64,000 nucleotides of DNA from Melioribacteraceae bacterium (GTDB taxonomy: Bacteria > Bacteroidota > Ignavibacteria > Ignavibacteriales > Melioribacteraceae), in NCBI GenBank assembly GCA_022181065.1, contig BQMY01000083.1, forward strand, positions 1 through 64,000, written 5' to 3'. This document shows, piece after piece, positions 37,796-63,396 of the stretch. The notes below the pieces were generated by a model. It saw nothing but the letters and a program-made list of their open reading frames with translations, did no database searches and was not told where the DNA came from. How positions within the stretch are numbered: the first letter of the stretch is position 1; the number at the start of each line of letters is the position of its first letter. The position numbers and the translations under genes were made by a program.

Positions 37796-37846
37796 TATAT
37801 CTCAAAAATGTAATTATTATCTTTTTATTGATCGTTTAAAATAGCA

Positions 37847-37876
37847 AAAACCGGCACTCATCAAAGTGCCGGTTTT
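37847..37876 (-). terminator. Strong hairpin terminator at the end of the glucan operon
   Basis: AAAACCGGCACT (37847-37858) pairs with AGTGCCGGTTTT (37865-37876) across a 6-base loop. It lies 13 bases past the stop of the T9SS glycan-binding gene and 51 bases before the phosphorylase-like start, so it divides the operon or attenuates read-through. Confidence 0.85.
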
Positions 37877-37889
37877 ACACTTACTAATT

Positions 37890-42109: not shown

Positions 42110-42125
42110 TTTGCCAACGTTATTA

Positions 42126-44736: not shown

Positions 44737-45225
44737 TTAATCGTTAATATTATGCACTACCAAAACAGGAAGTTTTGATTTGTGCAAAACCCGGTTAACT
44801 GTATCCCCAATGGTTGAATCTTCATTTCCAGATCTACCCTTGAAGCCCATTACAATCAAATCGCATTTATTCTCCTCAGCCACCTTGAGAATAGTTTTTA
44901 CCGGATTGCCGCGTTCAACAAGAATGTTGTTCTGGTCGAGAACTTCATCACCAAATTCTTCAATAATTTTATTCACAATATCTTTTTGAACATTTGTGGT
45001 GAAATCTTTTGCTTCGGAAAACTTCTTTTCAACGCTCGGAAGTCTTTCTAATCCCACATCAAACGTTAGCAGGTCAATCAGTTCAGTATTGAGAACATGC
45101 AGGAACGTCAACCTGGCTTTGTACTGATTAGCAATATTGAACGCATGGTAAAAAACATCTTTCCAATTCTGTGAAAACTCTGTTGTGTACAGAATATGCT
45201 CATATTTAATTTCAGGGGTTTTCAT
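44737..45225 (-). CDS. Universal stress protein (UspA family)
   Basis: The 162-residue protein has the USP fold pattern. YEHILYTTEFS opens strand 1, DLIVMGFKGRSGNEDSTIGDTVNRVL is the nucleotide-binding G-x2-G-x9-G-type loop, and KLPVLVVHN closes. It is cytoplasmic and probably ATP-binding. It sits in the middle of the glucan operon, between the sugar-binding lipoprotein (52 bases) and the intracellular GH17 (16 bases), an unusual place for a stress protein. This may tie energy or nutrient status to glucan use. Confidence 0.92.
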   Translation of the reverse strand: MKTPEIKYEHILYTTEFSQNWKDVFYHAFNIANQYKARLTFLHVLNTELIDLLTFDVGLERLPSVEKKFSEAKDFTTNVQKDIVNKIIEEFGDEVLDQNNILVERGNPVKTILKVAEENKCDLIVMGFKGRSGNEDSTIGDTVNRVLHKSKLPVLVVHNIND

Positions 45226-45277
45226 AACTCCTCTACATTTAATTCAGAAGAAAACAGACAACCATGTTTCTTTCTAA

Positions 45278-46306: not shown

Positions 46307-46349
46307 TTTAAATCCTTCAAAATTAGTTTTAAGGCTTTTCCACATATAC

Positions 46350-47825
46350 TTACTCACTCGAAAGTGCTGCGCTGACCGGCGCGGTTTTAGCTTTTCGTTT
46401 TTCAAGTTCACTTCTTATTTCAAGCGCTCTTTCTTCAGTGATTTTGAATGAAGCTACCGAAATTATAGCAATCAATGCCGCAGCTGCCGGAATGAACACA
46501 TCCACAATGCGCATCCAGAAGAAAGTTGACGAGGATTGGGCTCCTCCCAATTCCACTTCAAAACCTGTTGCATTCAGTAAATATCCCGATAAACCAAATG
46601 CGAGAGCCATACCAAGTTTAACCATCCACCAGTAAATAGATCCGAACATACCTTCACGTCTCTCACCGGTTTCCAACTCGTCAAGGTCACAAACGTCAGC
46701 GATCATCGAACCCATAAGGGTAAACAATGCGCCCATACCAACAGCTATCATTGGTGCGGGAAGCAATACCTTCCACGGCGCCATAGGATCATAGCTGAAC
46801 CATTTTAGCAAACTGCCGATCATAGTGATTGAAGTTGCGAGTATGAAAGTTTTACGTTTCCCTATTTTAGAGGATATCCAGGTAACAGCCGCAATAGCCA
46901 TTAACGTTGAAATAGTATTTATGGTACCAAACAATCCCATATATTTGGCGCCCATATCATTGTCTCCACCGGAAACATAAAATATGGTAATGTATGAGCT
47001 GAAAGCACCAACAAGCATGATACCGTTAAACAGAAAGAATGTACCAGCGCAAAGTTTAAGAAATTCGGGTCTTTTTACAGTAGTTACTAATCCCTTCAGA
47101 AATTCGGCTACATTCTTCTTAATACCTTCCAGCATGCTTATCTTCTTCTCGCCGGAATCCGCGTCAACAGCAACAAACTTTTCCTTGAGGAAGATTGCCG
47201 GAACAGCACCCACAATCGCGACAAACACACCAATGACAATCGCAAGAGTTCGCGCACCTTCAACAGAATCGGAAAACAGCCTGTCATTTTCCATAATAGC
47301 GTAAAACCACGGCAGCGATATCCACGCAAACTGCCCCATAAAATTCATCACACCCATCAGCCGGGTTCGCTCGTGATAATCTGTGGTAAGTTCATATCCG
47401 AGTGCCACCCACGGTGTAGCGAACATTGTGTAGAACAGATAGAAAATGATCGAGCCGATCAGGAAAAACCAGAAATAAAACATCTCGCTATTTCCAGGTG
47501 GAAGCTGCCACATCAAGGCAAACATCAGTCCCACAGCAATAGCGCCGATAAAAATATATGGTCTTCTTCTTCCATAGCGGGATCTGGTTTTATCAGATAT
47601 GTACCCCATGACAGGGTCGGTGATCGCGTCAGTCAGACGAGGAATTGCCTGCAGAGTACCAACTAATGCGGGATTTATACCTAAACCAACGTTCAAAACT
47701 ATCGACATAAACCCGATAGCACCCCCCAAAAGATTATTTACTATACCACCCAAACCATAAGCAAACATCTGACCGTTTGATAATTTATCCTTTTGGGGTG
47801 TTTGTTGACTATTTTTTGCGCTCAT
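46350..47825 (-). CDS. GPH-family sugar:cation symporter (MFS superfamily)
   Basis: The 491-residue protein has about 12 membrane segments. The GPH motifs are MGYISDKTRSRYGRRRPYIF after TM2 and the central ELTTDYHERTRLMGVMNF. The C-terminal half has DVCDLDELETGERREGMFGS, a hallmark of melibiose/xyloside-type carriers. These carriers import glycosides with Na+ or H+ across the inner membrane. It is the only inner-membrane sugar transporter in the glucan locus, so it probably imports gluco-oligosaccharides or glucose released outside. It lies 67 bases after the GH16 gene. Confidence 0.92.
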   Translation of the reverse strand: MSAKNSQQTPQKDKLSNGQMFAYGLGGIVNNLLGGAIGFMSIVLNVGLGINPALVGTLQAIPRLTDAITDPVMGYISDKTRSRYGRRRPYIFIGAIAVGLMFALMWQLPPGNSEMFYFWFFLIGSIIFYLFYTMFATPWVALGYELTTDYHERTRLMGVMNFMGQFAWISLPWFYAIMENDRLFSDSVEGARTLAIVIGVFVAIVGAVPAIFLKEKFVAVDADSGEKKISMLEGIKKNVAEFLKGLVTTVKRPEFLKLCAGTFFLFNGIMLVGAFSSYITIFYVSGGDNDMGAKYMGLFGTINTISTLMAIAAVTWISSKIGKRKTFILATSITMIGSLLKWFSYDPMAPWKVLLPAPMIAVGMGALFTLMGSMIADVCDLDELETGERREGMFGSIYWWMVKLGMALAFGLSGYLLNATGFEVELGGAQSSSTFFWMRIVDVFIPAAAALIAIISVASFKITEERALEIRSELEKRKAKTAPVSAALSSE

Positions 47826-47892: not shown

Positions 47893-48720
47893 TTACAATG
47901 CTTTATAAACTCTCACATAATCTATGTACATCTTCTGCGGAAATGGTGTTTCGCTTGTAGGAAATCCTACATAATTACCACCCACTGCAACATTAAGTAT
48001 CATGAAGAATGAGTTATCAAACACCCATTCACCGGAAAGATCACCCGGTTCCAATTCCTGAAACATTTCGTCATCAACATAAAATCTGATATAATCTTCA
48101 CCCCACTCAACTGCAAACAAATGGAAATCCACATCAAATCTGTCATTTTCAAACCCGTATGTTTTCGATACACCGCCACCACCTGAATATCCGGGTCCAT
48201 GAACTGTTGAATGTACCAGATAGGGTTGCTGTCCTCTATATTCCATGATATCTATTTCGCCACACTGCGGCCATCCAATGGTTGAAACATCAGTACCCAA
48301 AAGCCAGAAAGCAGGCCATAAACCGGGACCGTAAGGCAGTTTTATTCTGGCTTCAAACCTGCCGTATGTCTGCTCAAACAATCCCTGAGTCTTTATTCTC
48401 GCGGAAGAGAATGCCTGCCCGCCAAAAGCCTCTCTGATGGCGGTAATTACCAGATTACCATCTCCATCGAGTGAAACATTTTCCGGACGATCAGTATAAT
48501 ATTGTAATTCCTGGTTTCCCCATCCGTTGTCACCGGTGCCAATGTCATAAGTCCATTTTGTTGAATCTGGTGATTCGCCTGCCTGACCATTAAATTCATC
48601 CGACCAAACGAGCTGATATTCGGGTATTTCAGGATCGGTAGAACTGTCACAGGATATCATTGTGAACAGGAACAAAAAACCTGTTACGGCTAAAAGTGTG
48701 GTTCTTATTTTCGTTTTCAT
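47893..48720 (-). CDS. GH16 endo-beta-1,3-glucanase (laminarinase) lipoprotein
   Basis: The 275-residue protein has a lipoprotein signal (LFTMISC, Cys24) and a single GH16 domain. It starts LVWSDEFNGQAGESPDSTKW, has NGWGNQELQYYTDRPENV, GPGLWPAFWLLG and the catalytic PQCGEIDIMEYRG with Glu155, Asp157 and Glu160. It ends in FFMILNVAVGGNYVGFP and YIDYVRVYKAL. This is the GH16_3-type laminarinase pattern (beta-bulge E-I-D-I-M-E), the best-defined endo-acting enzyme in the operon. It probably makes oligosaccharides from laminarin at the cell surface. Confidence 0.95.
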   Translation of the reverse strand: MKTKIRTTLLAVTGFLFLFTMISCDSSTDPEIPEYQLVWSDEFNGQAGESPDSTKWTYDIGTGDNGWGNQELQYYTDRPENVSLDGDGNLVITAIREAFGGQAFSSARIKTQGLFEQTYGRFEARIKLPYGPGLWPAFWLLGTDVSTIGWPQCGEIDIMEYRGQQPYLVHSTVHGPGYSGGGGVSKTYGFENDRFDVDFHLFAVEWGEDYIRFYVDDEMFQELEPGDLSGEWVFDNSFFMILNVAVGGNYVGFPTSETPFPQKMYIDYVRVYKAL

Positions 48721-48770: not shown

Positions 48771-50018
48771 TTACTTCAATACTGCAGGAGCAGAACTCCT
48801 TGTTAATAATTCGGGCTCAATAAACGCCTGTTCAATTGCCAAAGTAGCCGCACCAATCGCTATTCCTTTTGAGCCCAATTCACTAACTTTTAACCGAGTC
48901 TTGGGAATTGTACTCACCAAAGCTGTGTCATTGATAGTCTTGCGTATAGGGTCCAACAATATGTCACCCAAACGGGCAAAGCTGCCACCAATTATTATCA
49001 TTTCAGGATTCATCATATTTACCAGACTTACAATTGCCGTAGTAAGATATTCTGTCGCCTCATTTACAATCTGTAAAGCAAGCGGATCGTCCGCAAGTGC
49101 AGCGTTTTCTATCTCCAGGATACCCGAATCCCCAATATGTAAAGGACTTTCAGGATATAATTCCGATAATGACGCTATTCTCGCTTTTAAAGCCCAGATT
49201 GACAATACCGTTGCGAGGCATCCTCTTAACCCGCATCCGCAGAGTTTACCGTTTGGGTCTATCGGCATGTGGCTCATTTCCCCGGCAATACCTTTTGCTC
49301 CTCTGTATAGTTTACCGCCGAATACAAAACCTGCGCCGATACCACTTGAAAGCTTGATATAAATAAGATCATTCACGTCTTTTGTTGTGGTCCACCAGTT
49401 TTCGGCAAGCGCGCCAAGGTTTGCGTCATTATCGAGATAAACAGGAACCTGATATTTTTCGCGCAATCGCTCAAGACCACTCTTACCATGCCATGCCGGA
49501 ATAATGGTTTCCGACAAATACTCCGGATGAAAAGGATCAACAGGACTCGGTACCGCAACTCCGATGCTTAAAAGTTTGTCATAACCGTATTTTTGAGATG
49601 CAAGACATTCATTACATAACTGATCTATAATTTTATAAGTACCACTCGCATCTTCTCTTGCCGGGAAATCCTTCTCATTCCAGAATAATAGATTTCCACG
49701 CAAATCTGTCATGGCAACAGAAACATGAGAGGCACCAATATCAATTCCCAGAATAACTTTGGCTTCATCCTGGAACTCCAAAACAATCGGCTTTCTGCCT
49801 CCGCTTGATTCACCGCTCCCTACTTCGGCTAACAACCCGGTAGGTAGCAGTTCCTTGATAATTTCAGTAACGGTGGAACGAGACAAGTTCAATTGACGCG
49901 CGATCTCAGCTCGTGAAATCTGAGATTCGCGCCAGATTAATCTTAATATCTTGTCTTTTAGAGTGAAACCATTCTGCTTATCAATTTCTGTTTCTATGTT
50001 ACTATTTATATTATTCAT
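48771..50018 (-). CDS. ROK family transcriptional regulator (NagC/XylR-type)
   Basis: The 415-residue protein has an N-terminal winged helix-turn-helix (ISRAEIARQLNLSRSTVTEIIKEL, about residues 33-56), then GRKPIVLEF, then a ROK fold. The fold includes LGIDIGASHVSVAM, GIGAGFVFGGKLYRGAKGIAGEMSHMPI and the zinc motif LCGCGLRGCLATV. ROK regulators usually repress sugar genes and are released by a bound sugar or sugar phosphate. It is third in the glucan operon, so autoregulation is likely. The palindrome over the promoter at 55882-55906 is a candidate operator. Confidence 0.93.
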   Translation of the reverse strand: MNNINSNIETEIDKQNGFTLKDKILRLIWRESQISRAEIARQLNLSRSTVTEIIKELLPTGLLAEVGSGESSGGRKPIVLEFQDEAKVILGIDIGASHVSVAMTDLRGNLLFWNEKDFPAREDASGTYKIIDQLCNECLASQKYGYDKLLSIGVAVPSPVDPFHPEYLSETIIPAWHGKSGLERLREKYQVPVYLDNDANLGALAENWWTTTKDVNDLIYIKLSSGIGAGFVFGGKLYRGAKGIAGEMSHMPIDPNGKLCGCGLRGCLATVLSIWALKARIASLSELYPESPLHIGDSGILEIENAALADDPLALQIVNEATEYLTTAIVSLVNMMNPEMIIIGGSFARLGDILLDPIRKTINDTALVSTIPKTRLKVSELGSKGIAIGAATLAIEQAFIEPELLTRSSAPAVLK

Positions 50019-50049: not shown

Positions 50050-52479
50050 TTATTTATGAAAAAGGATATTGTCAACATAAACCGTAGGAATAGTTTCTCC
50101 AACAAGAATCAACTGGGCTAAATGACCTTTGGTTGTTAAACCTGTAAAGTCACCAAGTGGAATATCAAAAGTGATCCACTGCCCCGTTGCCAATGCAGGA
50201 GTTGATGATGCGTTGAATGTGAGTTCGTGCTCAACATCATCACCACCATCAAAAGCACCGTCAGCACCAAAATCAACCAGCTTTATCTTGAATACATTTG
50301 GCAATGCCGTTGGATCAGGTGTCCATATATCCATACGGAAATGGGTCAAACCGGAGGCATCAACCGTTTGTGAAGTAAATTCGATACCGGCAAATACAAG
50401 ATTGCTGTACAATTTTGTATCATCACCCGCAACCTGAACATCAGCCACATCGGCATCATCCCAATCAGCTGACCAGGTATCAACTGTGTTATTAGTGTAT
50501 GCATTACTGTATAATGAAATCACATCACCTGCAGGATAAGTTGGTGTTGGTGCCGCTGAAGTTGGTTCACTACCTCCACCTCCACCACCGCCGGTGTTGA
50601 AGTAAATATTGTCAAGATATATATCACCATTTCCATCCGACTTAAGCTGGATAACATCTGTTAAATCAACCGATGCAAAAGATGTAATTGGAATATCCAC
50701 AGTTTGCCATCCGGTTGTAGGCACCGAAACTGAATATGCCTGTTCTACAGGTCCGGGACTTATCAGATAGAAATTAAATTCTGTCGAATTTTCTGTCCAG
50801 ATATCAAGATGAAGTGACCCCATACCGGAAACATCTATACTACTTGCCAACTCAATACCCTGGTAATCGAAACCGGCGTATTTCAAGGTGTTGTTTCCTG
50901 AAATTGATATTTCGGAGGCTGCTGTAGCCTGACCCCAGCTTGGGAAATAGTTTGCCCCAACATTGGTATATGCATCACTATAAATTGAGATTACATCTGC
51001 CGAGTTAGCAGTTGGAGTTGGCGCCGGTTCAGTCGGTTCACCACTACCACCGCCGCCGCCGCCGCTGCCGTCGTCATAGAAGTAAACGTTGTCAACATAA
51101 ACTGTATTCGGGTCTCCCGAAATAACCAATTGTCCCAAGTGACCTTTTGTGGTCAAACCTGTGAACGCGGATAGGGGTACATCAAGACTCACCCACTCTT
51201 CTGTGGCTAATGCTGGAGTTGTACTCGCGGTAAAGGTCAGTTCGTGCGATGCATCATCTCCACCATCATAAGCGCCATCAGCACCAAAATCAACCAGAAG
51301 AACTTTAAATTCAGCGGGAAGATCAGTTGCGTCAGGTGTCCATATATCCATGTGGAATCTGGTCATTGAAGAAGCATCGATGGTCTGAGAGGCAAATTCA
51401 ATACCATTAAAATTGAGTTTTGTATATAATTTTACATCATCTCCGGCAATCTGAATCTCTTCATACTCGGTAGTAGAAAACTCCCAGTAAGTTGCCCAGG
51501 TATCAACGGGAACATTAGTATAAGCATTACTGAACATTGAAATCACATCCGCAGCAGGTACTGTTGGAGCCGGCGCAGGTTGTGCAGGCGCAGGTCTTGC
51601 TTCCCCGACATTAAGAGTAATCGAACCATCAGCATCAACACCAGCAAGCTGCGCTGTAATTACAGCAGTACCCATTGAAATTGCTGAAATTTGACCATAC
51701 TCATCAACTGTCGCGACTGATTCATCGGATGAAGTATAAGTGAAATACGCAGGTGCCGCGTCAATTCTCTTATCAGTTCCATCAGGGAAATTATAAGTTA
51801 CGAAAGTTCCTCCTATTGGGAGCAAATCACCAATAGCCGCGTCAATATTCTGATCCTGTTGCTCAAGAATCGAAGGTCTGGGGTGAGCTAACAATCCTGT
51901 TTTTTCATATTTCACTTCGTCAAACCAAATTGTATATCCACTCCCATCTTCAGGACCTTCAGAGTAGAAAAACATTCCTCTTTCCGCAACCCATTTTGAG
52001 GGGTCAGGAATAGGGATGTAATATTTTTTCCAGTTAGCGTTTATCTTCATTCCGGAGCGAGTAGCCTGATACTTTGCTTCACCAAGATCATTACCAATTC
52101 CAAGGACATCTATCTCTGCAGGTTTAGTGGCTTTTGCCCGGAAAGTCAAAGCGTCAAAACCCGAGAGATTACGACCCACACTGGTGTAGTAAACACCACC
52201 GGCATAAGCACCGTAAGGGTCTTCAAAATCGGGCACTTCAATTTTCATAGATGAAGAGCCGCTGTATTTAACTTCGGTATCAACATCAAAAGCGTCCACA
52301 CGTGAACCGCCAAATGCCGCGTAATTCAATCCTGAACTAAACCCGTCAATAAATACTTCAGGTACACTCGGATATTCTGCGGGTTCCAAAATATCGGGGT
52401 CTCTTTCACAGCCTGCTAACACAAATAAAAACAAGAGTGTCAGGCCGAACGTTTTAATAACTAAATTTCTCTTTATCAT
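50050..52479 (-). CDS. Multi-module surface glycan-binding lipoprotein
   Basis: The ~809-residue protein has a lipoprotein signal (LLFLFVLAGC). A CBM11/CIA30-like domain comes first (about 40-200; YAAFGGSRVDAFDV, SGSSSMKIEVPDFEDP). An Ig-like BIG2 domain follows (about 210-295; FTYTSSDESVATVDEYGQIS). Then come three repeated modules in the order A-B-A: ISMFSNAYTNVPVDTW, ISIYSDAYTNVG and ISLYSNAYTNNTVDTW, each ending VYVDN or IYLDN. Linkers are Pro/Ala- and Gly-rich (SGGGGGGSG). The A and B modules also occur in the T9SS protein at 37890. No catalytic domain is seen. It is 24 bases after the barrel-fused glycosidase and is probably its capture partner. ATG 52479 has GGAG 6 bases upstream; the GTG at 52491 overlaps it. 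Confidence 0.82.
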   Translation of the reverse strand: MIKRNLVIKTFGLTLLFLFVLAGCERDPDILEPAEYPSVPEVFIDGFSSGLNYAAFGGSRVDAFDVDTEVKYSGSSSMKIEVPDFEDPYGAYAGGVYYTSVGRNLSGFDALTFRAKATKPAEIDVLGIGNDLGEAKYQATRSGMKINANWKKYYIPIPDPSKWVAERGMFFYSEGPEDGSGYTIWFDEVKYEKTGLLAHPRPSILEQQDQNIDAAIGDLLPIGGTFVTYNFPDGTDKRIDAAPAYFTYTSSDESVATVDEYGQISAISMGTAVITAQLAGVDADGSITLNVGEARPAPAQPAPAPTVPAADVISMFSNAYTNVPVDTWATYWEFSTTEYEEIQIAGDDVKLYTKLNFNGIEFASQTIDASSMTRFHMDIWTPDATDLPAEFKVLLVDFGADGAYDGGDDASHELTFTASTTPALATEEWVSLDVPLSAFTGLTTKGHLGQLVISGDPNTVYVDNVYFYDDGSGGGGGGSGEPTEPAPTPTANSADVISIYSDAYTNVGANYFPSWGQATAASEISISGNNTLKYAGFDYQGIELASSIDVSGMGSLHLDIWTENSTEFNFYLISPGPVEQAYSVSVPTTGWQTVDIPITSFASVDLTDVIQLKSDGNGDIYLDNIYFNTGGGGGGGSEPTSAAPTPTYPAGDVISLYSNAYTNNTVDTWSADWDDADVADVQVAGDDTKLYSNLVFAGIEFTSQTVDASGLTHFRMDIWTPDPTALPNVFKIKLVDFGADGAFDGGDDVEHELTFNASSTPALATGQWITFDIPLGDFTGLTTKGHLAQLILVGETIPTVYVDNILFHK

Positions 52480-52503
52480 TAGTAACTCCACTGATTAAAT
52501 TTT

Positions 52504-55500
52504 CTACATACCAAAGTTGAAATGTAAATATGTACGTATCTCCCATTCATTACCGTCTGAATAGCCGGGAGCCGTTGGATCACATTCAGCCTCACCCGTT
52601 ACACTTAAAGAGTGAACCGGACAGTATCGTGGAGAATATTCATTTAGTGAACGCCAGGCGCCTCTTACACCAAGTCTTGTTTGAGGAAGATCAAACCAGT
52701 CGGGCATTCCGAACTGGACTGAAACATCTGCAACCAATTGGAGTGGATATGTAAGGTTAAAATCGCGATGATAATCGTATGGACCCCAATCGTTAATTTT
52801 CACCTGAGTTAAAATTTTGAAATCTTTCACAGCAAGGCGGATATCAGCACCATAACGATGGATTAGTCGCGCGTCACTACCGTTTGATTCACCTTCGCCA
52901 GCATACACGTTGGCAATTAAACCATAACCGGGAGCCAGTTTGGAAACTATTCTGCTGTGGAATTCCCATAGATCTCTCGCGGGAGGTGCTCCGGGGAACG
53001 CAAATATTGTTCGTCCATCAGCAAGAATACCAATCCTCGCGTCACGGGTCGTAGGTTGATGCCTTAAAACAACACCGGCACTAACAGCTAATTTAGCATC
53101 TTCTCTTACATCACTATCCCATGCATACATCCATGTCGCGGGAGTTGGATCATAGGTGATCAACAACTCACCTGCGGTTGTTTCCCTGTTACCCAAAACA
53201 GCAAACGGATCGGATAGTATATTCCTTGGTCTTCCGGGAGCAGGCACAGTGTTCGGAATAGGACCTTCGATAGGTTTTTGCCACATAAAGTTTGGAGCGA
53301 TCTGGAAATCACCCATAATTACAGCCATACCGGTAAGTAAACTGTACTGGTTACCCAGTCCGCTGTTTTTTAATCTCCAACCCGTAAAGGTTAATGACTG
53401 ATTTACACCACCATCAGCGACCAAACCTTGCGCGGCACCTTCGGCATACCAGTTCCATCTGCCACTCTGGAAAGTTATTTTTGCCTTACCGCCAAAAGCG
53501 TCGGATGCTTTAATTTTATCTTGTAATATTCTGTAATTACCATCTGTTCCATCGGCAATCTGAAAAACTTCACCTTCTTTTGTACTACCTGACCAAATAC
53601 CACCAACTTCAAAGCCAAACGCGCCATATTCAGTTGCCATGTGCACGGTTGCTCTTCTGGTAGGTGGGACAGGAACCGCAAATGAACTTACCGCCTCACC
53701 CTGCTCGTCGAGGTCTTCATGGTAAATACCTGTAATTTCAACCGGACCAACGTCACGTGAATATTTAACAAGAACCGCGGGATTCGCTCCCCACCATAAT
53801 TCAGGTCCGAAAGCTACCTTTAATCCGTCTAATTGTTTTTTACCAGCAACCTCAAAACCAAGTGGCGCGTTACCGTTATAAATATCTATGTTAGGACCAT
53901 AGTTAGCTTCAGGATATAGCCCAAAGAAATCCCCTTCATAACCCCAGTGATAGTGACCTGTACGATAGAAACCGTCCAACTTGAACCATTTGTGATCCCA
54001 TGCGACACTAGCTCTGTAAACTTTAACTCTTTCAATACCATCAACAGTTACAGTACCATCGGTTGATTCAAGTGTTTTGGGTCTTCCCCTGTTCTCATAA
54101 AAGATTTCATCTATAGGATTAGTGGGCACATGACCCAACACGTTTAATGCAACTTTACCTCTGATATTAGTTGCAGGATTTGCCTCCATCTCCGCGTAAA
54201 AAGATTGCAGATGGTCAAAACCAAGAAATTGCGGATAATCTGTTCTTCCGGTTACTCTTTCATCAGGAGTCGAAATTTTATCGCCACCGGTACTGAACGT
54301 CTCAAATTGCATCCTCAATCCGCTCAGCCTTACCGGATTAGTTTCATTTGAACCCAAAGCGGCTTTATCTCCGCGAGCTTTCAGCACATAGGGAGTTGGT
54401 GACAGTTTACTGAAAAAAGCTCTAATTTCTTTTTCACCGATTTTAGAAGATAGCACGTCAAGCGCGTGTATATCCTTTAAAGCATAATATCCCGCTCTCG
54501 GATATAAGTGATACAAACCTCTGCTATCGGTAGGACCTTTAGCACAGACTCCGAACCACTCCTCGTTCATATTGTTTTCACCTTCGATGAAATCGTCAAC
54601 ATAACCACCGTTCGCCCATGAAGCATTATTATCATGAACGTCCAAATTACTGTCCTGTAGATATTTCCACCAGCCGTCGCTGAACTGAAATGTCATTCCA
54701 CCAATAGAATTTCCATATCCGCCATTTCCATAAGCATGTATATATATATCTTCCCAGTTACCGATCAGATATTTTGCCTGCATAGCCTGATCTTCCCGCA
54801 TTTCAACAGCATTGAAAGCATCCGAACCGAACTCGGCAAACATAACGGGAACATCTAACACCTTGGAAGTTCTTTCAAACAGGTCAGTAAATGTTATACC
54901 ACGATAGGCGTTTATCCCGAAAACATCCATGTCAGGTACTTCTTCTGCAATGATATCAAGGAAAAGAAGATCACCGTTACAAATTGATACGGGATGATTA
55001 TCGTCATATTTTTTAATCTCGTTAATTCCCTCATTAAAGAGCTTGTACATGTGTCTTGCTCTAACTGATTCCAGCGTCTCTCCTTCAGGGATATCCTCTG
55101 TTTCAGCACCGCCCCAAAACAAACCGTAGTTGTTTTCGTTACCAAGCATCCACATCAATAAACCCGGCACATCTTTAAATTCCGTAACCATGTCGTTCAC
55201 TTCTTTAAGAAGGATCTCTCTGGTAGCAGGATCCGCGTAATCTGTATTCGTCACATAAGCGCCGTCGATCGTAAGACCGTATCTACCGAAAGAATGGTTA
55301 AGGACTGTATATATTCCGTAATTTTTGTAAATGTATTCAATCCACTTGGGTTGAATACCAACATAAGCTCTGATAACATTAGCCCCCATATTCTTCAGTA
55401 AAGACATTTCTCTGTCAAGAGCTTCCTTAATGATGTCATCGGGCTGATTCCAGATACTGTATGCGTAGTTTTCACCGATTGGGAAGATATCCCAATTCAT

Positions 55501-55656
55501 TCCAAGTACAATGAAATCCTCACCATTTACTTGAAGTTTGTATCCTTTTTCATCGTTAAACACAGAAACCCGGTCAACTTGAGCATTGAGATTAAACGCG
55601 AATAACCCCAACAATACTATTTTAAACCAGGTAGATTTAAGTTGAAACAAGGCCAT
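52504..55656 (-). CDS. Clan GH-A glycoside hydrolase fused to an outer-membrane beta-barrel
   Basis: The 1050-residue protein has a signal peptide (LLGLFAFNLNAQ) and a TIM-barrel glycosidase (about 35-400) of GH2/GH72-like style. Seen are FIVLGMNWDIFPIGENYAYS, ANVIRAYVGIQPKW, candidate acid/base Glu174 in MWMLGNENNYG and candidate nucleophile Glu275 in VPVMFAEFGSDAF. From about residue 480 to the end it shows alternating aromatic/charged beta-strands of an outer-membrane barrel (YRASVAWDHKWFKLDGFYRTG, WNWYAEGAAQGL, WEIRTYLHFNFGM). This would tether catalysis to the membrane and perhaps form a pore. It heads the glucan operon behind the palindromic promoter; GGGAGG lies 5 bases before the ATG. 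The substrate is inferred to be beta-1,3-glucan from context. Confidence 0.78.
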   Translation of the reverse strand: MALFQLKSTWFKIVLLGLFAFNLNAQVDRVSVFNDEKGYKLQVNGEDFIVLGMNWDIFPIGENYAYSIWNQPDDIIKEALDREMSLLKNMGANVIRAYVGIQPKWIEYIYKNYGIYTVLNHSFGRYGLTIDGAYVTNTDYADPATREILLKEVNDMVTEFKDVPGLLMWMLGNENNYGLFWGGAETEDIPEGETLESVRARHMYKLFNEGINEIKKYDDNHPVSICNGDLLFLDIIAEEVPDMDVFGINAYRGITFTDLFERTSKVLDVPVMFAEFGSDAFNAVEMREDQAMQAKYLIGNWEDIYIHAYGNGGYGNSIGGMTFQFSDGWWKYLQDSNLDVHDNNASWANGGYVDDFIEGENNMNEEWFGVCAKGPTDSRGLYHLYPRAGYYALKDIHALDVLSSKIGEKEIRAFFSKLSPTPYVLKARGDKAALGSNETNPVRLSGLRMQFETFSTGGDKISTPDERVTGRTDYPQFLGFDHLQSFYAEMEANPATNIRGKVALNVLGHVPTNPIDEIFYENRGRPKTLESTDGTVTVDGIERVKVYRASVAWDHKWFKLDGFYRTGHYHWGYEGDFFGLYPEANYGPNIDIYNGNAPLGFEVAGKKQLDGLKVAFGPELWWGANPAVLVKYSRDVGPVEITGIYHEDLDEQGEAVSSFAVPVPPTRRATVHMATEYGAFGFEVGGIWSGSTKEGEVFQIADGTDGNYRILQDKIKASDAFGGKAKITFQSGRWNWYAEGAAQGLVADGGVNQSLTFTGWRLKNSGLGNQYSLLTGMAVIMGDFQIAPNFMWQKPIEGPIPNTVPAPGRPRNILSDPFAVLGNRETTAGELLITYDPTPATWMYAWDSDVREDAKLAVSAGVVLRHQPTTRDARIGILADGRTIFAFPGAPPARDLWEFHSRIVSKLAPGYGLIANVYAGEGESNGSDARLIHRYGADIRLAVKDFKILTQVKINDWGPYDYHRDFNLTYPLQLVADVSVQFGMPDWFDLPQTRLGVRGAWRSLNEYSPRYCPVHSLSVTGEAECDPTAPGYSDGNEWEIRTYLHFNFGM

Positions 55657-55881: not shown

Positions 55882-55906
55882 ACTTTGTTCGATTACAGAA
55901 CAAAGT
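55882..55906. promoter_or_regulatory. Palindrome overlapping the operon promoter (candidate ROK operator)
   Basis: ACTTTGTTC (55882-55890), spacer GATTACA, GAACAAAGT (55898-55906) is a perfect 9-base dyad. Its right arm covers most of the -7 element of the minus-strand promoter, where a repressor would block transcription. The binding protein is inferred; the ROK regulator inside the operon is the obvious candidate. Confidence 0.5.
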
Positions 55907-57102: not shown

Positions 57103-58758
57103 TTATTTCATTCTTCTTTCCAACTGGTACTTATATAGTGAAGGAACCTCAATTCCCGGTTTATTCATTCCCTCAAAATATGTATTAATGGGATATTCGA
57201 TTGTTATCGGATAGTTTCCGGTGATCCCGACCAATCTCTCGGATGGACTGTCAGTAACTCCCTTGATCCTTATCGTATCTTGTTCCGGATTATCGAACAA
57301 AAATTCGAAATGAACATTCCAGAAAGTAGAAAACGCTGCATGAGAAGGACTCCAGTATTTCGCGCCCCCCATCGTGATCGGTTTATGCTTTGGATCATCC
57401 ACATATACTAAAATGTTATCAAACAGGTTTTGATAATTTAATCCGCTGTGCTGATCGAGTGTCGGCATAGTCGTTACAACACAGTCAGTATAAATACATG
57501 AACGTGAACCAGTATTGAACGTTAAGGAATGCACCACCGGAGCCTGTACGTATAAATCTCGCGCTAGCATGTTGTAACAATCCCCGAAATGAACGGCATA
57601 GTGATACTTTCTGCCGTAAGTGCCAATATTCTCAAAAGTTACGTTTGAACACAAATCGGTCAGTACGCCGCTGTCACCATTCCGAAAATTTACATTACGC
57701 ACCCACGAATGAGTGGTATTTGTAAGATAAATTGCGTTAAATCCATATTCAACATGGTGATATTTGTACTCCTGATATAAAAACTCAAAATTGATATTTT
57801 CAATTCCAACATTGGAAATATACTGCCATTCTGTTATATCAGGCTGCCACTCCGGACGTAAATCATGCAAAAGCGGCTCTTTTATCGTTATTCTATTTCC
57901 TTCAACCGCAACAACAGTTACTTCCTGTTTTGTGAGGGGAATATCAGGTGTTTCCCAATGGCGACTTCCTGTTTTCACATCCTGGTTATCATACAAATAT
58001 TTAACAAGTGATGATTCTTCACCTTCAACATTGTACCAGTTAATCTTCACAATGCTTCCGGGCTGAAGTTTTGATCCATCCTCTACATGAATTTCGTGTT
58101 CCCCTCTTTTCCCTGATTTTATCTTCGCCAGAATATTTTCTTCTGTGTTATATTTCGATAGGTATGCTTTACCTCTTGCGCCGGGATAATTTGTCCAGAT
58201 ATATCCGCCTGACCAAGCATAGAGTGAAAACGGTTCATCAACCCCCCTCGCTTTTTCTCTTTGGCGTTTATCATTTATTTTCAGGTATTCATCCAATTCT
58301 GCGAAGTCTTCCGGTATTGGAAGTTCATTCAGCGCAAGAGGCATATACAATGTAGTACGGTTTTTATCTCCGCTCCTCTCACCCCGCAACACAATGTTGC
58401 TTCTGTTCATATTAACAATTTTTTTCAGGATATATCTACCCGGAGGCAAATAAACCACTACATTATCTTCGATTTCATGCGCCTTTTTAACCGCGGCGAG
58501 GATAGCTTGAGTATCATCCTTTTTATCATTAGGGATGGCTCCAAATTCGGTTACATCCAGGACAGTACCCGTCACATCGGGGATTTCCTCCTCACCCCAT
58601 TTGTATCCCGCAAATGAATAATCGGGCAGGAAATGTTCCTTCTGAACTTCCGCGCTCAATATTTTTGGCATCCATCCCGTGTTGTTTTCCTGACAATCGC
58701 AACCTGCGAACAGCGTTAAAAACAGTGATAATATTATTATGACTAAAAAATTCTTCAA
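57103..58758 (-). CDS. Parallel beta-helix (pectate-lyase-3-like) lipoprotein
   Basis: The 551-residue protein has a lipoprotein signal (FLTLFAGC). Its first repeat region matches the Pectate_lyase_3/GH28-like start: VTEFGAIPNDKKDDTQAILAAVKKAHE, VVVYLPPGRYIL, IVLRGERSGD. Beta-helix rungs follow (VGIENINFEF, HSWVRNVNFRNGDSGVL, NVTFENIGTYGRKYHYAVHFGDCYN). No catalytic residues can be assigned by eye. It is probably a surface polysaccharide lyase or hydrolase for uronic-acid polymers, given KDPG aldolase 17 bases upstream and the PL6 gene in the same operon. Confidence 0.8.
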   Translation of the reverse strand: MKNFLVIIILSLFLTLFAGCDCQENNTGWMPKILSAEVQKEHFLPDYSFAGYKWGEEEIPDVTGTVLDVTEFGAIPNDKKDDTQAILAAVKKAHEIEDNVVVYLPPGRYILKKIVNMNRSNIVLRGERSGDKNRTTLYMPLALNELPIPEDFAELDEYLKINDKRQREKARGVDEPFSLYAWSGGYIWTNYPGARGKAYLSKYNTEENILAKIKSGKRGEHEIHVEDGSKLQPGSIVKINWYNVEGEESSLVKYLYDNQDVKTGSRHWETPDIPLTKQEVTVVAVEGNRITIKEPLLHDLRPEWQPDITEWQYISNVGIENINFEFLYQEYKYHHVEYGFNAIYLTNTTHSWVRNVNFRNGDSGVLTDLCSNVTFENIGTYGRKYHYAVHFGDCYNMLARDLYVQAPVVHSLTFNTGSRSCIYTDCVVTTMPTLDQHSGLNYQNLFDNILVYVDDPKHKPITMGGAKYWSPSHAAFSTFWNVHFEFLFDNPEQDTIRIKGVTDSPSERLVGITGNYPITIEYPINTYFEGMNKPGIEVPSLYKYQLERRMK

Positions 58759-58775
58759 TTTTATGCCCCCTACTA

Positions 58776-59414
58776 TTATTTATTTAAAGAGTTTATTACT
58801 CTTCTCGCGTTATCCTTTATCAAACCGAATTCACCATTTTCAATCGCGGTCTTGTCAATTAAAGCGGAACCAACGCCCACAGCACAAGCACCCGCTCTTA
58901 TCCATTCTCCGCCGTTATTCAGGTTTACACCACCTGTTGGCATAAGTTTAAGAAACGGCATAGGTGCAAGTACACCCTTGAAAAATGCCTGCCCGAGAGT
59001 ATCAGCCGGAAAGACTTTCACTATATCAGCACCCGCTCTGTGCGCAGCAAGTATTTCTGTTGGAGTAAATGCTCCAACCATTGCAGGAACATCATGGTTG
59101 TGCGATTCTTTAATTATCTCTGCGAGAAAAACAGGACTCACCACGAATTCAGCCCCCGCCTCGATCGATTTTTTAGCGTCGTCGCTGCCAAGTACTGAAC
59201 CAACTCCGACAGTAATTTTATCTCCAAATTCTTTCTTCAAATTTGCAATAATCTCAAGCGCATCTGGCGTAGTGAGAGTAATCTCCAGAAGTGAAATCCC
59301 TCCTTCGATAAGCGCCTCCGCCATTCCTTTATAGTTTTTGCTACTGTTAAGTCGCACAACAGCAACAGCTTTTTTATCAAGTACTTCCTGTAATATTTGT
59401 TCTCGCTTACTCAT
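58776..59414 (-). CDS. eda: KDPG aldolase (2-dehydro-3-deoxy-phosphogluconate aldolase)
   Basis: The 212-residue protein starts MSKREQILQEVLDKKAVAVVRL. It has the catalytic Glu in LIEGGISLLEITLTTPDAL, AEFVVSPVF, and the Schiff-base Lys in GADIVKVFPAD, then LMPTGGVNLNN. It splits 2-keto-3-deoxy-6-phosphogluconate into pyruvate and glyceraldehyde 3-phosphate, the last step for alginate- and uronate-derived sugars. ATG 59414 overlaps the upstream lyase stop in ATGAGTAA and has AGGA 8 bases before it; a longer ATG at 59429 is less likely. No KDG kinase or DEH reductase is visible in the window. Confidence 0.95.
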   Translation of the reverse strand: MSKREQILQEVLDKKAVAVVRLNSSKNYKGMAEALIEGGISLLEITLTTPDALEIIANLKKEFGDKITVGVGSVLGSDDAKKSIEAGAEFVVSPVFLAEIIKESHNHDVPAMVGAFTPTEILAAHRAGADIVKVFPADTLGQAFFKGVLAPMPFLKLMPTGGVNLNNGGEWIRAGACAVGVGSALIDKTAIENGEFGLIKDNARRVINSLNK

Positions 59415-61650
59415 CACGAAATTCCTCATAATTGTATTTTTTTAACCCACTCAAAACAACCCTCTTCTCCGACTGTGTTAACTCAAACTCACCACTCCCC
59501 AATAAAGTTATCTCACCAGAATCTCTATCGAGTAGGATATTAAAATCGGGCACATTTATTGCCGCATTACCCAATTTCGCCACATCAAATAACAGAAGAA
59601 ATTCCTTGTTCCCGAAACCATATTCGCACTCTACCACAAATGTTTCGTCCCGAAATTCACTTCTGAAAAATTCCCATCCTGATATTTCCGATTTTTCAAG
59701 ATTCTTTCTCTCATCAATTCTAGTATCAAACTGGCTGAAAGGATAAAGCAGAGTGACAAACTGAGCACTGCTTATACCGTTTTGTTCAAAAAGTATCGAG
59801 CTTTTACCCCAAACTATTGGTGAGTTTGTGTACGAATCAAACTGCTCGAGCTGAATAATTTCGAGTCCGCCTCCATCTGCGGTAGTAGATCGAAAATGAT
59901 TTTCGGTAACTTCACTGTAATAACCTTGCCAGATTTGCTGATAATTTCGCTCTTGGCCGGAATTTAATATATCCTTCACAATGACAAATCCGTCATGGAT
60001 GAAATATATCTTCCTCTCAAAAGAAGCATTTTCATAACTTACAGTTCCCTCGAAAAAATCAAGACCATCAAGATTGAGGTATCCATTTACTTTCGGTTCG
60101 GGAAGTTCCAGAAATTTACCAAATCCCGATCCACCTTTATTTCCCTTCCATTCTCTACCATGAGGAATTGAATCAACCACACAAACATTTTTCGAAAAAG
60201 AATTTTTAAAATAAGGCAGCTCCTCGAGATAATATCTCACCTGATAGTTTGGCAACATAACATTATTGAAAGCGAATAATTGAATTCCCAGCATATCACC
60301 ATGCTGATGATCAGGTTTATTTTCTGACAAACCCGCACTAACTGTTACGACCATCGAGTTATCATCCCAGCCGTTGCGCATTGAATAGTAACCGGTTGAT
60401 GGAAGTGCATTGCTTAAAAATCCGGGTTGTTTCGGTACAATATCCTGTAATTTTTTTCGATCTTCAGGACGAACAAACCAGAACTTATCTGATAATATTT
60501 TATCTGACGCAAAGAATTTAAATGTTGGTTCTTCGAAAAGTACAGTTCCCAAAGCCATGATACTTCCCATCCTTTTGTAGTAAGACCAGGGGTTATCAGT
60601 ATCATCTTGCAGAACAGGTAATGTTTTGTCAGGGTGAGCGAGTACAGTGAGTGCCCCGAACATCCGATAGAACTGGCTGTTAAAAGTATCGGGAAGATCG
60701 ATTTTATTTAACCCGGCAAGGTAGTACACATAAAAATAATTATCTATGTCGCCAATATGGTAATGGATAGATCTTTCAAGCTGAAAACCATCTTCATTAA
60801 CTTCTTTCGTAATATGTTCGGTTAGAAGTTTTTTTGACATTTCAAGCCAGTCAGCACTTTCCTCGAACTCAGGGAAAAGAATAGCGATAAGGGATAACGC
60901 CATTACTCCTTTGGTATGATGATTACCATACCGGAATTTCTCCACTCTGTTGGCCAAATCAACAGCATGATAATAGAAGGTTCGGACAAAAAGAAAGTTG
61001 TCTTCAGGTGTAAAATTACTGTCGGAAAGGAGTAAATTATAGACCCACAACCAGTTAAATACTCTGTACCCGGCTCTGAATGACTCGAATACACTGTTTC
61101 CATCGCGCTCAAATGTGTCTGCTATATATGCTTTCTCAAGCGAAACAGGCATTTCAAGCATGTAATCATACTTTTTTCTATCATTATCAAGTAAATATTC
61201 GAACGCTACATCTACCAGCTTATGCTGACGGGCAAGATGTCGAAGCTCATAAGCCGAAATCATCTTTCCCGAATTGCTTTCCATCGGTAAATTCCAGTCG
61301 CTATCGGGAGGGTATAACTCCATCATACTTTTTGCCCGACGTGCGTGCTGCTTTTGTTTGTCGGGGAAAAACTCACGATAATCTTTTATTTCAGTATCGA
61401 GTTTTGAATGATCGAAGAAGAATCGCTCACTCATTTTAGCCGAAAAATAATTCGCCACCTTCTCGAACGCTGATTTGTGATCACCCGAATTATAGGATTT
61501 TAGTGCTTCTTTTAGTTCCGGCGCTCCGCTAGCGAGTTTTTCAAGCACCATTTTATTTCGATCATCGGTGAATCTGTAATCTTTTGCGGAAACAGGTATA
61601 GACCCGAAGATCATGACCAAAACCACAACTATATAATTTAATCGTCTCAT
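59407..61650 (-). CDS. Heparinase II/III-fold polysaccharide lyase (probable oligoalginate lyase)
   Basis: The 747-residue protein has a signal peptide (MIFGSIPVSAK). An (alpha/alpha) toroid (about 25-380) contains Asn243-His244-His245 in YGNHHTKGV and EDGFQLERSIHYHIGD with Tyr297, the neutralising and catalytic positions of this lyase fold. The C-terminal beta-sandwich (about 400-747) has KPDHQHGDMLGIQLFAF, where a further His is expected. PL17 and PL39 alginate lyases share this architecture; the exact PL family is not clear. With PL6 and KDPG aldolase it likely turns alginate oligomers into unsaturated monomers. It starts directly after the PL6 stop and overlaps eda by 8 bases. Confidence 0.82.
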   Translation of the reverse strand: MRRLNYIVVVLVMIFGSIPVSAKDYRFTDDRNKMVLEKLASGAPELKEALKSYNSGDHKSAFEKVANYFSAKMSERFFFDHSKLDTEIKDYREFFPDKQKQHARRAKSMMELYPPDSDWNLPMESNSGKMISAYELRHLARQHKLVDVAFEYLLDNDRKKYDYMLEMPVSLEKAYIADTFERDGNSVFESFRAGYRVFNWLWVYNLLLSDSNFTPEDNFLFVRTFYYHAVDLANRVEKFRYGNHHTKGVMALSLIAILFPEFEESADWLEMSKKLLTEHITKEVNEDGFQLERSIHYHIGDIDNYFYVYYLAGLNKIDLPDTFNSQFYRMFGALTVLAHPDKTLPVLQDDTDNPWSYYKRMGSIMALGTVLFEEPTFKFFASDKILSDKFWFVRPEDRKKLQDIVPKQPGFLSNALPSTGYYSMRNGWDDNSMVVTVSAGLSENKPDHQHGDMLGIQLFAFNNVMLPNYQVRYYLEELPYFKNSFSKNVCVVDSIPHGREWKGNKGGSGFGKFLELPEPKVNGYLNLDGLDFFEGTVSYENASFERKIYFIHDGFVIVKDILNSGQERNYQQIWQGYYSEVTENHFRSTTADGGGLEIIQLEQFDSYTNSPIVWGKSSILFEQNGISSAQFVTLLYPFSQFDTRIDERKNLEKSEISGWEFFRSEFRDETFVVECEYGFGNKEFLLLFDVAKLGNAAINVPDFNILLDRDSGEITLLGSGEFELTQSEKRVVLSGLKKYNYEEFRDE

Positions 61651-63396
61651 CTATTTCAGATATATAATTTTGTTTGTAATAAGTTTTCCACCGGCATGCA
61701 CAGTATAGAAATAAACTCCACTCGATACGTTTCGGGGAGTCCATCTCACCGAGTGCTCACCTTTTTCGTAAACCTTTTCTGAAATCACCTCTATTTCCCT
61801 TCCAATAAAATCGTGTATAACAACTTTCACTGGCATTTGAGCAGATATCGAAAAAGAAATGTTTGTAACACCATTAAAAGGGTTGGGATAATTATTTTTG
61901 ACAGTAAATCTATAAGGTAAATGATTTTTACTTTTAACAGAAACAGTTGTTTCATCCACCGGTCCCACATCATCCGATGTTAATGGTTTGTTAGTTACTG
62001 CGTCACTGCTATACTCATCCGCGCCAATATCATTAAGATTGTTTCGCATCTGACAATCAATATCTCCAGATACATATTCATAGTCACCTGTCGCCGAATC
62101 GATTGCCGGACTCCCTTCCCCTAATCTCCAAAGATTCCCGCTACCTTCAAGCTCCGGATCAATTTCTATGATCTCGCCCGACTGATAATTCACTCCGATA
62201 CCCGCAGTTCCTTCCGCAAAAAATATGTTGCTGTTCCATTCCATATTAACCGGGGAGGTAATTATTTTCACAAGATCATTTTCTGAGCCACAAACAATGT
62301 TATTGGCAAAAACTACATCTCGGGGCGGTTTGGAATATTTCCCGTTGTTTGTATATCCAATCTCTATCCCGTTAGTATTGTTTACCAACGTATTAAATAC
62401 GATGATTGCTCTATTAATACGGAAATGTTTGGAGTAATTTGAACCGCCGTCATAATCACCGTTTGTTAAGGTAATTGGCGCGTCCCACACAGAGCCGGCA
62501 AGCCCGGTAAAGAAATTATTATATATAATATGATCATCACCGTAAACCCTGATACCACCGGTACCTGCGACCTCCTCTCCAAAAAAGAAATTTCCGTTGA
62601 CTACCGTCCTGTCGCCGTGCCGCAGGCATAATGTTCCTTTACTCCGTCTGAAAGTATTGTAGCGGATAATATTATCACACGTCTTAACCGATATTATTTC
62701 GGGATCACCATTACAATCCTCGAATAAATTGTACTGGACAACAGTATATCCGCTTGAAGGTGACAGTTCACTCCAACCAATACGTATCGATTCTTTTTCA
62801 TTTTCAGCACGCGGATCATTATTCCTGAAATAATTATACTCTATCGTATCCCTTTGAGATGATTGATACACCGGATCAGGACTACCATCTATCGTTATAA
62901 AATTGCCTGGATAAGTTTTGTTTTCAAAAATATTGTGGTCTATTTTATTATCGTGGCTTAATGCGTTTGGATCATCCCAGATTCCGCCAATCAGCACCCA
63001 CTTGACAGATTCTGTTTCCTGAATTCTGAAAATATTATTCGTTATACGAATATGATGCGATGCCTGAAGCTTGACCGCGGTAACATCCTGGCTGGAAAAT
63101 ATAAAGCCGTTAAGTTCGATATAGGAACATTTCCTGAAATCAAAGTACGATTCATTAATCAGCTCAGTTCCGTTCAGGTTCTCAGCTTTAATAACTATTG
63201 GTGCATCAATGGTACCGTTATTACGAATTGTGACGGATCCGTCTGTATCAAATTGTCCGCTTCGTACAACAATTGTATCACCGGGGGAAGCTGAATTTAC
63301 AGCAGATTTAAGTTGCTCATCATTCTGCACAAAAATGGTCTGTGCAGTGAGTAAAAAGGAAATGACCAGCAAACATATCAATACTAATTTACTCAC
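61651..63396 (-). CDS. PL6 alginate lyase with T9SS sorting domain
   Basis: The 581-residue protein has a signal peptide (VISFLLTAQ) and the PL6 parallel beta-helix. Seen are GDTIVVRSGQF, DPEIISVKTCDNIIRYN, RSKGTLCLRHGDRTVVNGNF and TGGIRVYGDDHIIYNNFF. Lys238 and Arg259 are 21 residues apart, the same spacing as the catalytic Lys-Arg pair known in PL6 alginate lyase AlyGC. After ~430 the T9SS tail (NYPNPFNGVTNISF to NKIIYLK) directs it to the surface. It cleaves alginate by beta-elimination. The start is GTG 63396 with AAGGA 8 bases upstream; it follows the esterase-like gene by 2 bases. Confidence 0.93.
   Translation of the reverse strand: MSKLVLICLLVISFLLTAQTIFVQNDEQLKSAVNSASPGDTIVVRSGQFDTDGSVTIRNNGTIDAPIVIKAENLNGTELINESYFDFRKCSYIELNGFIFSSQDVTAVKLQASHHIRITNNIFRIQETESVKWVLIGGIWDDPNALSHDNKIDHNIFENKTYPGNFITIDGSPDPVYQSSQRDTIEYNYFRNNDPRAENEKESIRIGWSELSPSSGYTVVQYNLFEDCNGDPEIISVKTCDNIIRYNTFRRSKGTLCLRHGDRTVVNGNFFFGEEVAGTGGIRVYGDDHIIYNNFFTGLAGSVWDAPITLTNGDYDGGSNYSKHFRINRAIIVFNTLVNNTNGIEIGYTNNGKYSKPPRDVVFANNIVCGSENDLVKIITSPVNMEWNSNIFFAEGTAGIGVNYQSGEIIEIDPELEGSGNLWRLGEGSPAIDSATGDYEYVSGDIDCQMRNNLNDIGADEYSSDAVTNKPLTSDDVGPVDETTVSVKSKNHLPYRFTVKNNYPNPFNGVTNISFSISAQMPVKVVIHDFIGREIEVISEKVYEKGEHSVRWTPRNVSSGVYFYTVHAGGKLITNKIIYLK

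Follow-up and report, generated by a model that had tools for sequence, protein, structure and literature searches.

A glycoside hydrolase fused to a predicted outer-membrane beta-barrel at the head of a laminarin-type operon

Laminarin is among the largest algal carbon pools and among the most abundant carbohydrates of the ocean, and its uptake by bacteria is usually attributed to SusC/SusD. How might a beta-1,3-glucan operon that lacks both bring its substrate across the outer membrane? We addressed this question in a window of 64,000 nucleotides from a Melioribacteraceae bacterium (assembly GCA_022181065.1, contig BQMY01000083.1, positions 1 to 64,000), in which the first gene of such an operon encodes a glycoside hydrolase (GH) joined to an outer-membrane beta-barrel, hereafter the GH-barrel. 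The fusion, the barrel, their conservation and the laminarin-type operon are the strongest of our claims and rest on calculation. Our favoured answer is that the protein is probably the outer-membrane channel of this uptake operon, with an endo-beta-1,3-glucanase at its periplasmic mouth.

Architecture and conservation of the fusion protein

An earlier reading made from the sequence alone (the sequence-only reading) had described an open reading frame (ORF) of 1050 residues with a signal peptide at 52504-55656, and our analysis recovered exactly this ORF. A strong ribosome-binding site, GGGAGG, stands ahead of it, and 520 bp of non-coding DNA lie 5' of the gene. The gene and its parts are as follows.

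52504-55656, minus strand: GH-barrel fusion gene, 1050 amino acids, first gene of the operon (ORF, AlphaFold2 models and full-length homologues)
55582-55656, minus strand: signal peptide, residues 1-25, without a lipobox cysteine (sequence; helix 3-24 in the model)
54442-55578, minus strand: clan GH-A TIM domain, residues about 27-405, GH157/GH158-like (AlphaFold2, profiles and structural neighbours)
55135-55137 and 54832-54834, minus strand: codons of the catalytic glutamates E174 and E275, respectively
52507-54336, minus strand: outer-membrane beta-barrel, residues about 441-1050, 24-26 strands, a family new by sequence (AlphaFold2, amphipathicity and structural neighbours)

In the AlphaFold2 (AF2) model of the full-length protein (pLDDT 78.1, pTM 0.64), the signal helix is followed by a TIM barrel, low-confidence linker helices and 26 strands at residues 442-1048. 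No convincing lipobox was found in the GH-barrel homologues. Residues 442-1048 formed a single barrel of 24-26 amphipathic strands whether modelled with or without the GH domain, and the barrel folded alone (pLDDT 78.3, pTM 0.75) contained the same elements as in the full-length model. The count is 24 or 26 because two of the strands, 697-704 and 707-714, show little amphipathicity and could instead form a hairpin within an outer loop. Mean strand amphipathicity was 2.59; within-strand shuffles gave 1.44 +/- 0.22, with a highest value of 2.20 in 2000. The protein ends in ...YLHFNFGM, a last strand with an aromatic ending. An even strand count, amphipathic strands, short periplasmic turns, long outer loops and an aromatic C-terminal end, the hallmarks of outer-membrane barrels, are all present.

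Structural comparison of the full-length model by VIA-align listed TIM-barrel enzymes only, and the barrel was therefore folded and compared separately. Among the matches listed, its neighbours in the PDB were outer-membrane barrels without exception, namely AlgE, OprD/Occ porins, Wzi, chitoporin, maltoporin, sucrose porin, TonB-dependent receptors, FimD/PapC and LptD. The highest scores went to the OprD/Occ porins and to AlgE, the alginate exporter (Z about 16.5; AlgE 16.4), and the 24-strand usher FimD aligned to the barrel over its full length (Z 13-14). LptD is the classical 26-strand barrel, but kinship with it is not claimed, as its Foldseek rank was only 38. By sequence, no Pfam family covered the barrel, no PDB chain matched it and NCBIfam gave nothing usable; PF21813 (DUF6882) matched 6 of 65 members, with a best E of 5e-4. 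A SusC-type transporter was rejected, since the protein has no Plug match and 24-26 strands are predicted, against 22 in that type. A type Va autotransporter was likewise rejected: such barrels have 12 strands, and the Pfam scans found no autotransporter family. The covalent fusion of a hydrolase to an outer-membrane barrel, the central claim of the sequence-only reading, is borne out by both AF2 models, the amphipathicity and the structural neighbours, and the C-terminal part folds as one membrane barrel, not as soluble beta-sandwiches.

The model also bears on the side of the membrane at which the enzyme lies. Most connections at one end of the barrel comprise just two residues (2,3,6,2,2,2,2,2,20,2,2,12), whereas the loops on the opposite side have 6-36 residues (median 19 vs 2, p = 1.3e-4), and the N- and C-termini of the barrel are both at the short-turn side. 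In known outer-membrane barrels this side is periplasmic; LptD, FimD, BcsC and PgaA are large barrels whose N-terminal domains stay in the periplasm. Given the position of the barrel termini, the GH domain most likely hangs under the pore on the periplasmic side. The suggestion that the fusion would place the active site over a membrane pore is therefore probably wrong, as the turn and loop lengths and the termini put the enzyme beneath it. In addition, outer loops S5-S6, S7-S8 and S23-S24 have a mean conservation of 0.93, 0.99 and 0.96. Such values are unusual for surface loops and point to a function, for example constriction, glycan selection or lipoprotein docking.

GH157 and GH158, the families discussed next, both hold beta-1,3-glucanases. 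The TIM-barrel strands of the AF2 model lie at 50, 94, 116, 166, 223, 245, 271 and 317; pLDDT is mostly 85-94 in the core blocks and much lower in several loops. As clan GH-A requires, E174 comes after strand beta-4 and E275 closes strand beta-7, and both are invariant (65/65 homologues), so the clan and the two catalytic residues named from the sequence alone were confirmed. N173-E174 and E275 align with both catalytic glutamates of BuGH158 (6pal), which are E137 and E220 (PMC7157763) and lie 83 residues apart in both numberings. The only Pfam match of the protein was a weak one to the GH2 TIM domain (PF02836, 27.6 bits). A profile of 65 homologues searched against the PDB matched 6pal weakly (whole-sequence E 6.9e-6, best stretch i-E 0.0017) and GH158(Pro) 9oro (E 7e-4), both ranking above GH2; in this search LaGH157 (9g4n) gave no match at E<1. 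By VIA-align, the full-length model matched LaGH157 with Z 28.2 (root mean square deviation 3.1 over 318 residues, 18% identity), and LaGH157, GH2 beta-glucuronidases and GH158 (Z 27.7) were ties. The identity of the domain to GH157/GH158 structures is about 20%. A proper GH2 enzyme was rejected, because the TIM domain comes directly after the signal peptide, with no preceding sugar-binding jelly roll or Ig-like domains. The C-terminal Ig-like domain of the GH158 type is also absent, and in the model helices and the membrane barrel come after the TIM domain. Judged by profiles and models, the domain belongs to clan GH-A near GH157/GH158 and is not a proper GH2. The earlier clan assignment stands, and profiles, structure and operon content narrow it to a GH157/GH158-like enzyme with beta-1,3-glucan as the predicted substrate.

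Full-length relatives with 75, 72 and 65% identity are found in members of the same family and order. A contig scan gave 545 relatives confirmed by tblastn, and 80 loci were retained for comparison, all matching over essentially the entire length except two at contig edges. The carriers include Ignavibacteria, Bacteroidales, Saprospiria, Chitinophagales, Flavobacterium, Chryseobacterium and Cloacibacterium, together with metagenome-assembled genomes (MAGs) assigned to Calditrichia, Zixibacteria/GN15, Neomarinimicrobiota, Gemmatimonas and Thermoanaerobaculia; MAG taxonomy and single contigs call for caution. The fusion is thus kept from Ignavibacteria to other Bacteroidota and MAGs of other phyla, and the barrel has been retained, not lost, in close and distant homologues alike. 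Homologous ORF lengths cluster at 1037-1091. Barrel-only profiles matched in 34 of 395 genomes of the phylum and 12 of 391 of the class, and these searches never found a barrel without the enzyme: the only exceptions to ORFs of about 1050 residues were one broken frame and fragments at contig edges. Distances of the GH part and of the barrel are correlated (Mantel r 0.65, 0/999 permutations), and the two halves appear from these distances to evolve together. Relatives of the GH half without a barrel, about 29-35% identical, are lipoproteins adjoining GH16 and GH3 genes (L121:8504-9856 and L122:9131-10528); they plausibly represent the source or ancestral state of the enzyme half.

The operon, its operator and SusC/SusD

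The operon runs on the minus strand from 55656 down to 34331, with the GH-barrel gene first and GH149 last. The other features are listed below; T9SS stands for type IX secretion system, MFS for major facilitator superfamily and SGBP for surface glycan-binding protein.

55882-55906, no strand: palindrome ACTTTGTTC-N7-GAACAAAGT, probable operator of the ROK regulator, just upstream of the GH-barrel gene
50050-52491, minus strand: surface glycan-binding lipoprotein (SGBP; LAGC lipobox, acidic residues after the cysteine, Big_2 and SGBP_B_XBD-like repeats)
48771-50018, minus strand: ROK-family regulator
47893-48720, minus strand: GH16 lipoprotein, predicted surface endo-beta-1,3-glucanase
46350-47825, minus strand: MFS_2 sugar transporter, inner membrane
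45278-46411, minus strand: periplasmic sugar-binding-protein-like lipoprotein (Peripla_BP_4)
44737-45225, minus strand: universal stress protein domain protein, conserved in the operon (cluster 13)
43824-44720, minus strand: GH17, without a signal peptide
42126-43799, minus strand: GH30
40949-42151, minus strand: GH16-like protein (phmmer to beta-1,3(-1,4)-glucanases)
39804-40925, minus strand: GH17-like protein, below the Pfam cut-off
37890-39746, minus strand: protein with a T9SS sorting tail
34331-37795, minus strand: GH149 beta-1,3-oligoglucan phosphorylase (1146 bits to PDB 6hq6)

The PDB entry 6hq6 is a solved beta-1,3-oligosaccharide phosphorylase, and the GH149 of the window is 47% identical to that of another locus. 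Judging by these gene families, this is a beta-1,3-glucan (laminarin) locus. The order GH-barrel, SGBP, GH16 and then GH149/GH17/GH30/MFS is common to the loci, and the SGBP gene comes next after the GH-barrel gene in 71 of 81, usually about 10-30 bp away. Acidic residues after the lipobox cysteine are the surface-export signal of Bacteroidota lipoproteins; in the six positions past the lipobox their mean number is 2.5 for SGBP and 1.9 for GH16, against 0.5-0.7 for GH17/GH30. The sugar-binding-protein-like lipoprotein and the universal stress protein (44737-46411) stand between MFS and GH17 without an ABC transporter, and the order from MFS through these two to GH17 and GH30 was seen again in L011, L012 and L018. 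Upstream, at 57103-63396, is an alginate-locus-like gene set: a PL6-type (chondroitinase B family) protein with a T9SS tail, a heparinase II/III-type lyase (PL17-like), a KDPG-aldolase-like protein and a pectate-lyase-like protein.

Two models found no SusD in the source genome, whose completeness is rated 100%, and its 34 TonB plug domains all lie outside the contig of the window (C83). A canonical polysaccharide utilization locus (PUL) was accordingly rejected for this locus, and the view of the GH-barrel as the first gene of an operon lacking SusC/SusD held up. At 34331-39746, a pair of 1154 and 618 amino acids is SusC/SusD-like by size but consists of GH149 and the T9SS-tailed protein. Seven of 34 fusion-bearing genomes lack any SusD, and a comparison of coordinates placed SusD within 10 kb of the fusion in 4 of the 34, all of family f30. 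Among the 80 named loci, 47 of which are flanked by 8 kb or more to the left and right, a SusC-like ORF was nearby in two (L017, a SusC/SusD pair; L074, a distant TonB-receptor-like ORF). The Bacteroides finegoldii locus reads GH-barrel, SGBP, GH16, fimbrillin, hypothetical protein and GH3, without SusCD (L143:11867-22903). Its "plasmid 29" also bears rpsA and valyl-tRNA synthetase genes and is therefore probably chromosomal. In Flavobacterium aquatile (L081), a culturable carrier, SusCD was likewise not seen within 10 kb of the fusion. In a minority of marine flavobacteria, SusC/SusD lie 3-7 kb from the fusion in the same cluster, and the fusion and SusC/SusD are thus not mutually exclusive; in L123 and L125 the order is regulator-SusC-SusD-...-GH-barrel-SGBP-GH16. 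The proposal that the GH-barrel could take the place of SusC/SusD therefore agrees with the source genome and about nine tenths of the loci, but not with these flavobacteria.

The palindrome ACTTTGTTC-N7-GAACAAAGT, with a chance expectation of 0, has a single copy in the 4.9 Mb source genome and in the relative G031 and two copies in the relative G052, each of them at the GH-barrel gene. It also lies upstream of or near the called GH-barrel start in L012, L013, L014 (twice), L015, L023, L050 and L078 (one mismatch). Most palindrome-bearing loci carry a ROK gene (L013 and L023 are on short contigs), and most ROK-bearing loci, from several phyla, share the palindrome; it is absent from the 700 bp upstream of the fusion in L011 and L037, both with ROK. 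These patterns make it the probable operator of a ROK regulator for beta-1,3-glucan. No second exact copy was found at a distant TonB receptor in the source genome. Since the exact palindrome is restricted to the GH-barrel gene in these genomes, it is specific to this operon there, and an exact copy is found at none of the other outer-membrane channels, although a degenerate version may exist elsewhere. In Bacteroidia loci, a Y_Y_Y/LuxR regulator lies upstream instead.

Function of the fusion and rival explanations

We infer channel function and the periplasmic position of the enzyme, and likewise transport and enzyme activity, from the results above. In the proposed scheme, the surface lipoprotein (50050-52491) would bind beta-1,3-glucan and the surface GH16 lipoprotein would shorten the chains, as their families and lipoprotein signals suggest. 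The chains would then enter the wide barrel, selected by its conserved extracellular loops, without TonB or SusD, because the protein lacks a plug domain, the genome lacks SusD and the operon encodes no further outer-membrane channel. The GH157/GH158-like domain, on a short periplasmic linker according to the barrel topology, would cut the arriving chains, as its catalytic residues and fold predict; cleavage may maintain an inward gradient and block back-diffusion. By their families, GH30 and GH17 would trim the products, MFS would import them, and cytoplasmic GH17 and GH149 would finish by hydrolysis and phosphorolysis. The wider proposal, a TonB- and SusCD-independent glycan importer that combines a very large pore and a flow-rectifying hydrolase in one polypeptide across Bacteroidota and neighbouring phyla, we give an even chance.

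Several points weigh against this scheme. With 24-26 strands and no plug, the pore would be expected to leak, and the scheme has to assume that loops or the GH domain occlude it. Confidence is low (pLDDT 44-60) in the linker and in some loops, which leaves the arrangement of GH domain and barrel loosely defined. The sequence similarity to GH158 is weak (E 7e-6), and the substrate specificity rests mainly on the operon. Finally, the marine flavobacteria of L123 and L125 have SusC/SusD in the cluster, and the barrel is not the sole channel there.

Two other readings each have a small but real chance. The barrel might be a mere anchor or translocator that displays the GH domain at the surface like an autotransporter, with uptake through another TonB-dependent receptor: the order of signal, passenger and barrel is that of type Va, helix 420-435 ahead of the first strand could span the pore, and 34 TonB plug proteins are encoded elsewhere in the genome. 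However, 12 strands are the rule in autotransporters, against 24-26 here, the helix has low confidence when the barrel is folded alone, the strongly conserved extracellular loops would be needless for an anchor, and the genome has neither SusD nor an exact operator copy at a TonB-dependent receptor. Comparably improbable is a periplasmic GH domain under a general or auxiliary pore that admits only small oligosaccharides or helps in some habitats, while SusC/SusD or another TonB-dependent receptor imports the large glucan. The SusC/SusD genes directly upstream of the fusion in L123 and L125, and those in its vicinity in L017, would fit this arrangement, whereas the 7 of 34 fusion-bearing genomes without SusD, the absence of SusCD within 10 kb of most loci and the SusCD-free locus of B. 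finegoldii, whose genus is rich in SusCD, speak against it. L123 and L125 would be useful for asking whether SusC/SusD and the GH-barrel divide the work by chain length.

We regard two further explanations as very improbable. A machine for glucan synthesis and export like PgaA/PgaB, BcsC/BcsZ or AlgE, in which the hydrolase would keep the periplasm clear, would agree with AlgE being among the best structural neighbours (Z 16.4) and with the frequent coupling of a porin and a periplasmic hydrolase in export systems; but the recurrent neighbour families scanned by Pfam include no glycosyltransferase or synthase, and the genes around the fusion encode catabolic hydrolases and a phosphorylase, together with an importer and sugar-responsive regulators. 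The remaining idea, a chance or prediction artefact in which the C-terminal half is a soluble beta protein, draws on the lack of a Pfam family or PDB sequence match for that half, against which stand a closed barrel predicted twice, strong amphipathicity and listed structural neighbours that are all outer-membrane barrels.

If channel and enzyme are indeed combined in this protein, a transporter is present in many laminarin loci so far scored as transporter-free or as simple enzyme clusters, surveys based on SusC/SusD undercount laminarin loci, and polysaccharide has a second route across the outer membrane without TonB energy. A 24-26-strand barrel without a sequence relative of known structure is itself of interest, and the fusion opens the idea that hydrolysis below a pore works as a ratchet.

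Comparison with known systems

The family has long been recorded only as "GH2" or as an unclassified enzyme in laminarin loci. Database labels of the GH-barrel proteins give a sugar-cutting enzyme only, without the barrel; that of B. finegoldii (WP_022275059.1), for example, is annotated "glycoside hydrolase family 2 TIM barrel-domain containing protein". Flavobacterial laminarin PULs (Formosa, Muricauda, "variant 1"/variant B), described in PMC6246565, PMC13188888 and PMC10108472, share the LuxR/Y_Y_Y regulator, GH16, GH17, GH30, MFS and GH149. In the Muricauda PULs the GH-barrel position is given as "GH2 beta-glycosidase" (PMC13188888), and the "GH0" of the "GH149-GH0-GH16_3" PULs in bloom MAGs (PMC10108472) is probably the GH-barrel gene. 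These papers take the gene as a plain glycosidase, do not mention a barrel and present the bloom and Formosa loci as built around SusCD. Bacteroidetes clusters without susCD were already noted in the GH149 paper (PMC5827456). In the open-access literature we found no published GH-barrel fusion or mention of a fused barrel.

Several known systems resemble parts of this one. GH158 (BuGH158, 6pal) has the same clan GH-A TIM fold and the two catalytic glutamate positions, and GH157 (LaGH157, 9g4n) has the TIM fold in common; both are beta-1,3-glucanase families, but their enzymes have no barrel. The MFS-GH17 fusion of Formosa (PMC6246565), from a locus of this type, also joins a transporter to a hydrolase of beta-1,3-glucan, but its transporter is alpha-helical and lies in the inner membrane. 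The atypical PUL chu_1276-1280 of Cytophaga hutchinsonii (PMC12016534) likewise combines a non-SusCD outer-membrane barrel, SGBP-B-like lipoproteins and an endoglucanase; its substrate is the beta-glucan cellulose, the barrel CHU_1276 and the endoglucanase CHU_1280 are separate proteins, and the likeness is one of locus make-up. Synthase-dependent exporters (AlgE, PgaA, BcsC) place a barrel and a periplasmic accessory part beside a glycan hydrolase function, but differ in their export direction, their separate hydrolases and TPR in place of the GH domain. Glycoporins (LamB maltoporin, ScrY, chitoporin ChiP, OprD/Occ), structural neighbours of the barrel, are TonB-free oligosaccharide channels as proposed here, but have 16-18 strands, are trimeric or monomeric and carry no fused enzyme.

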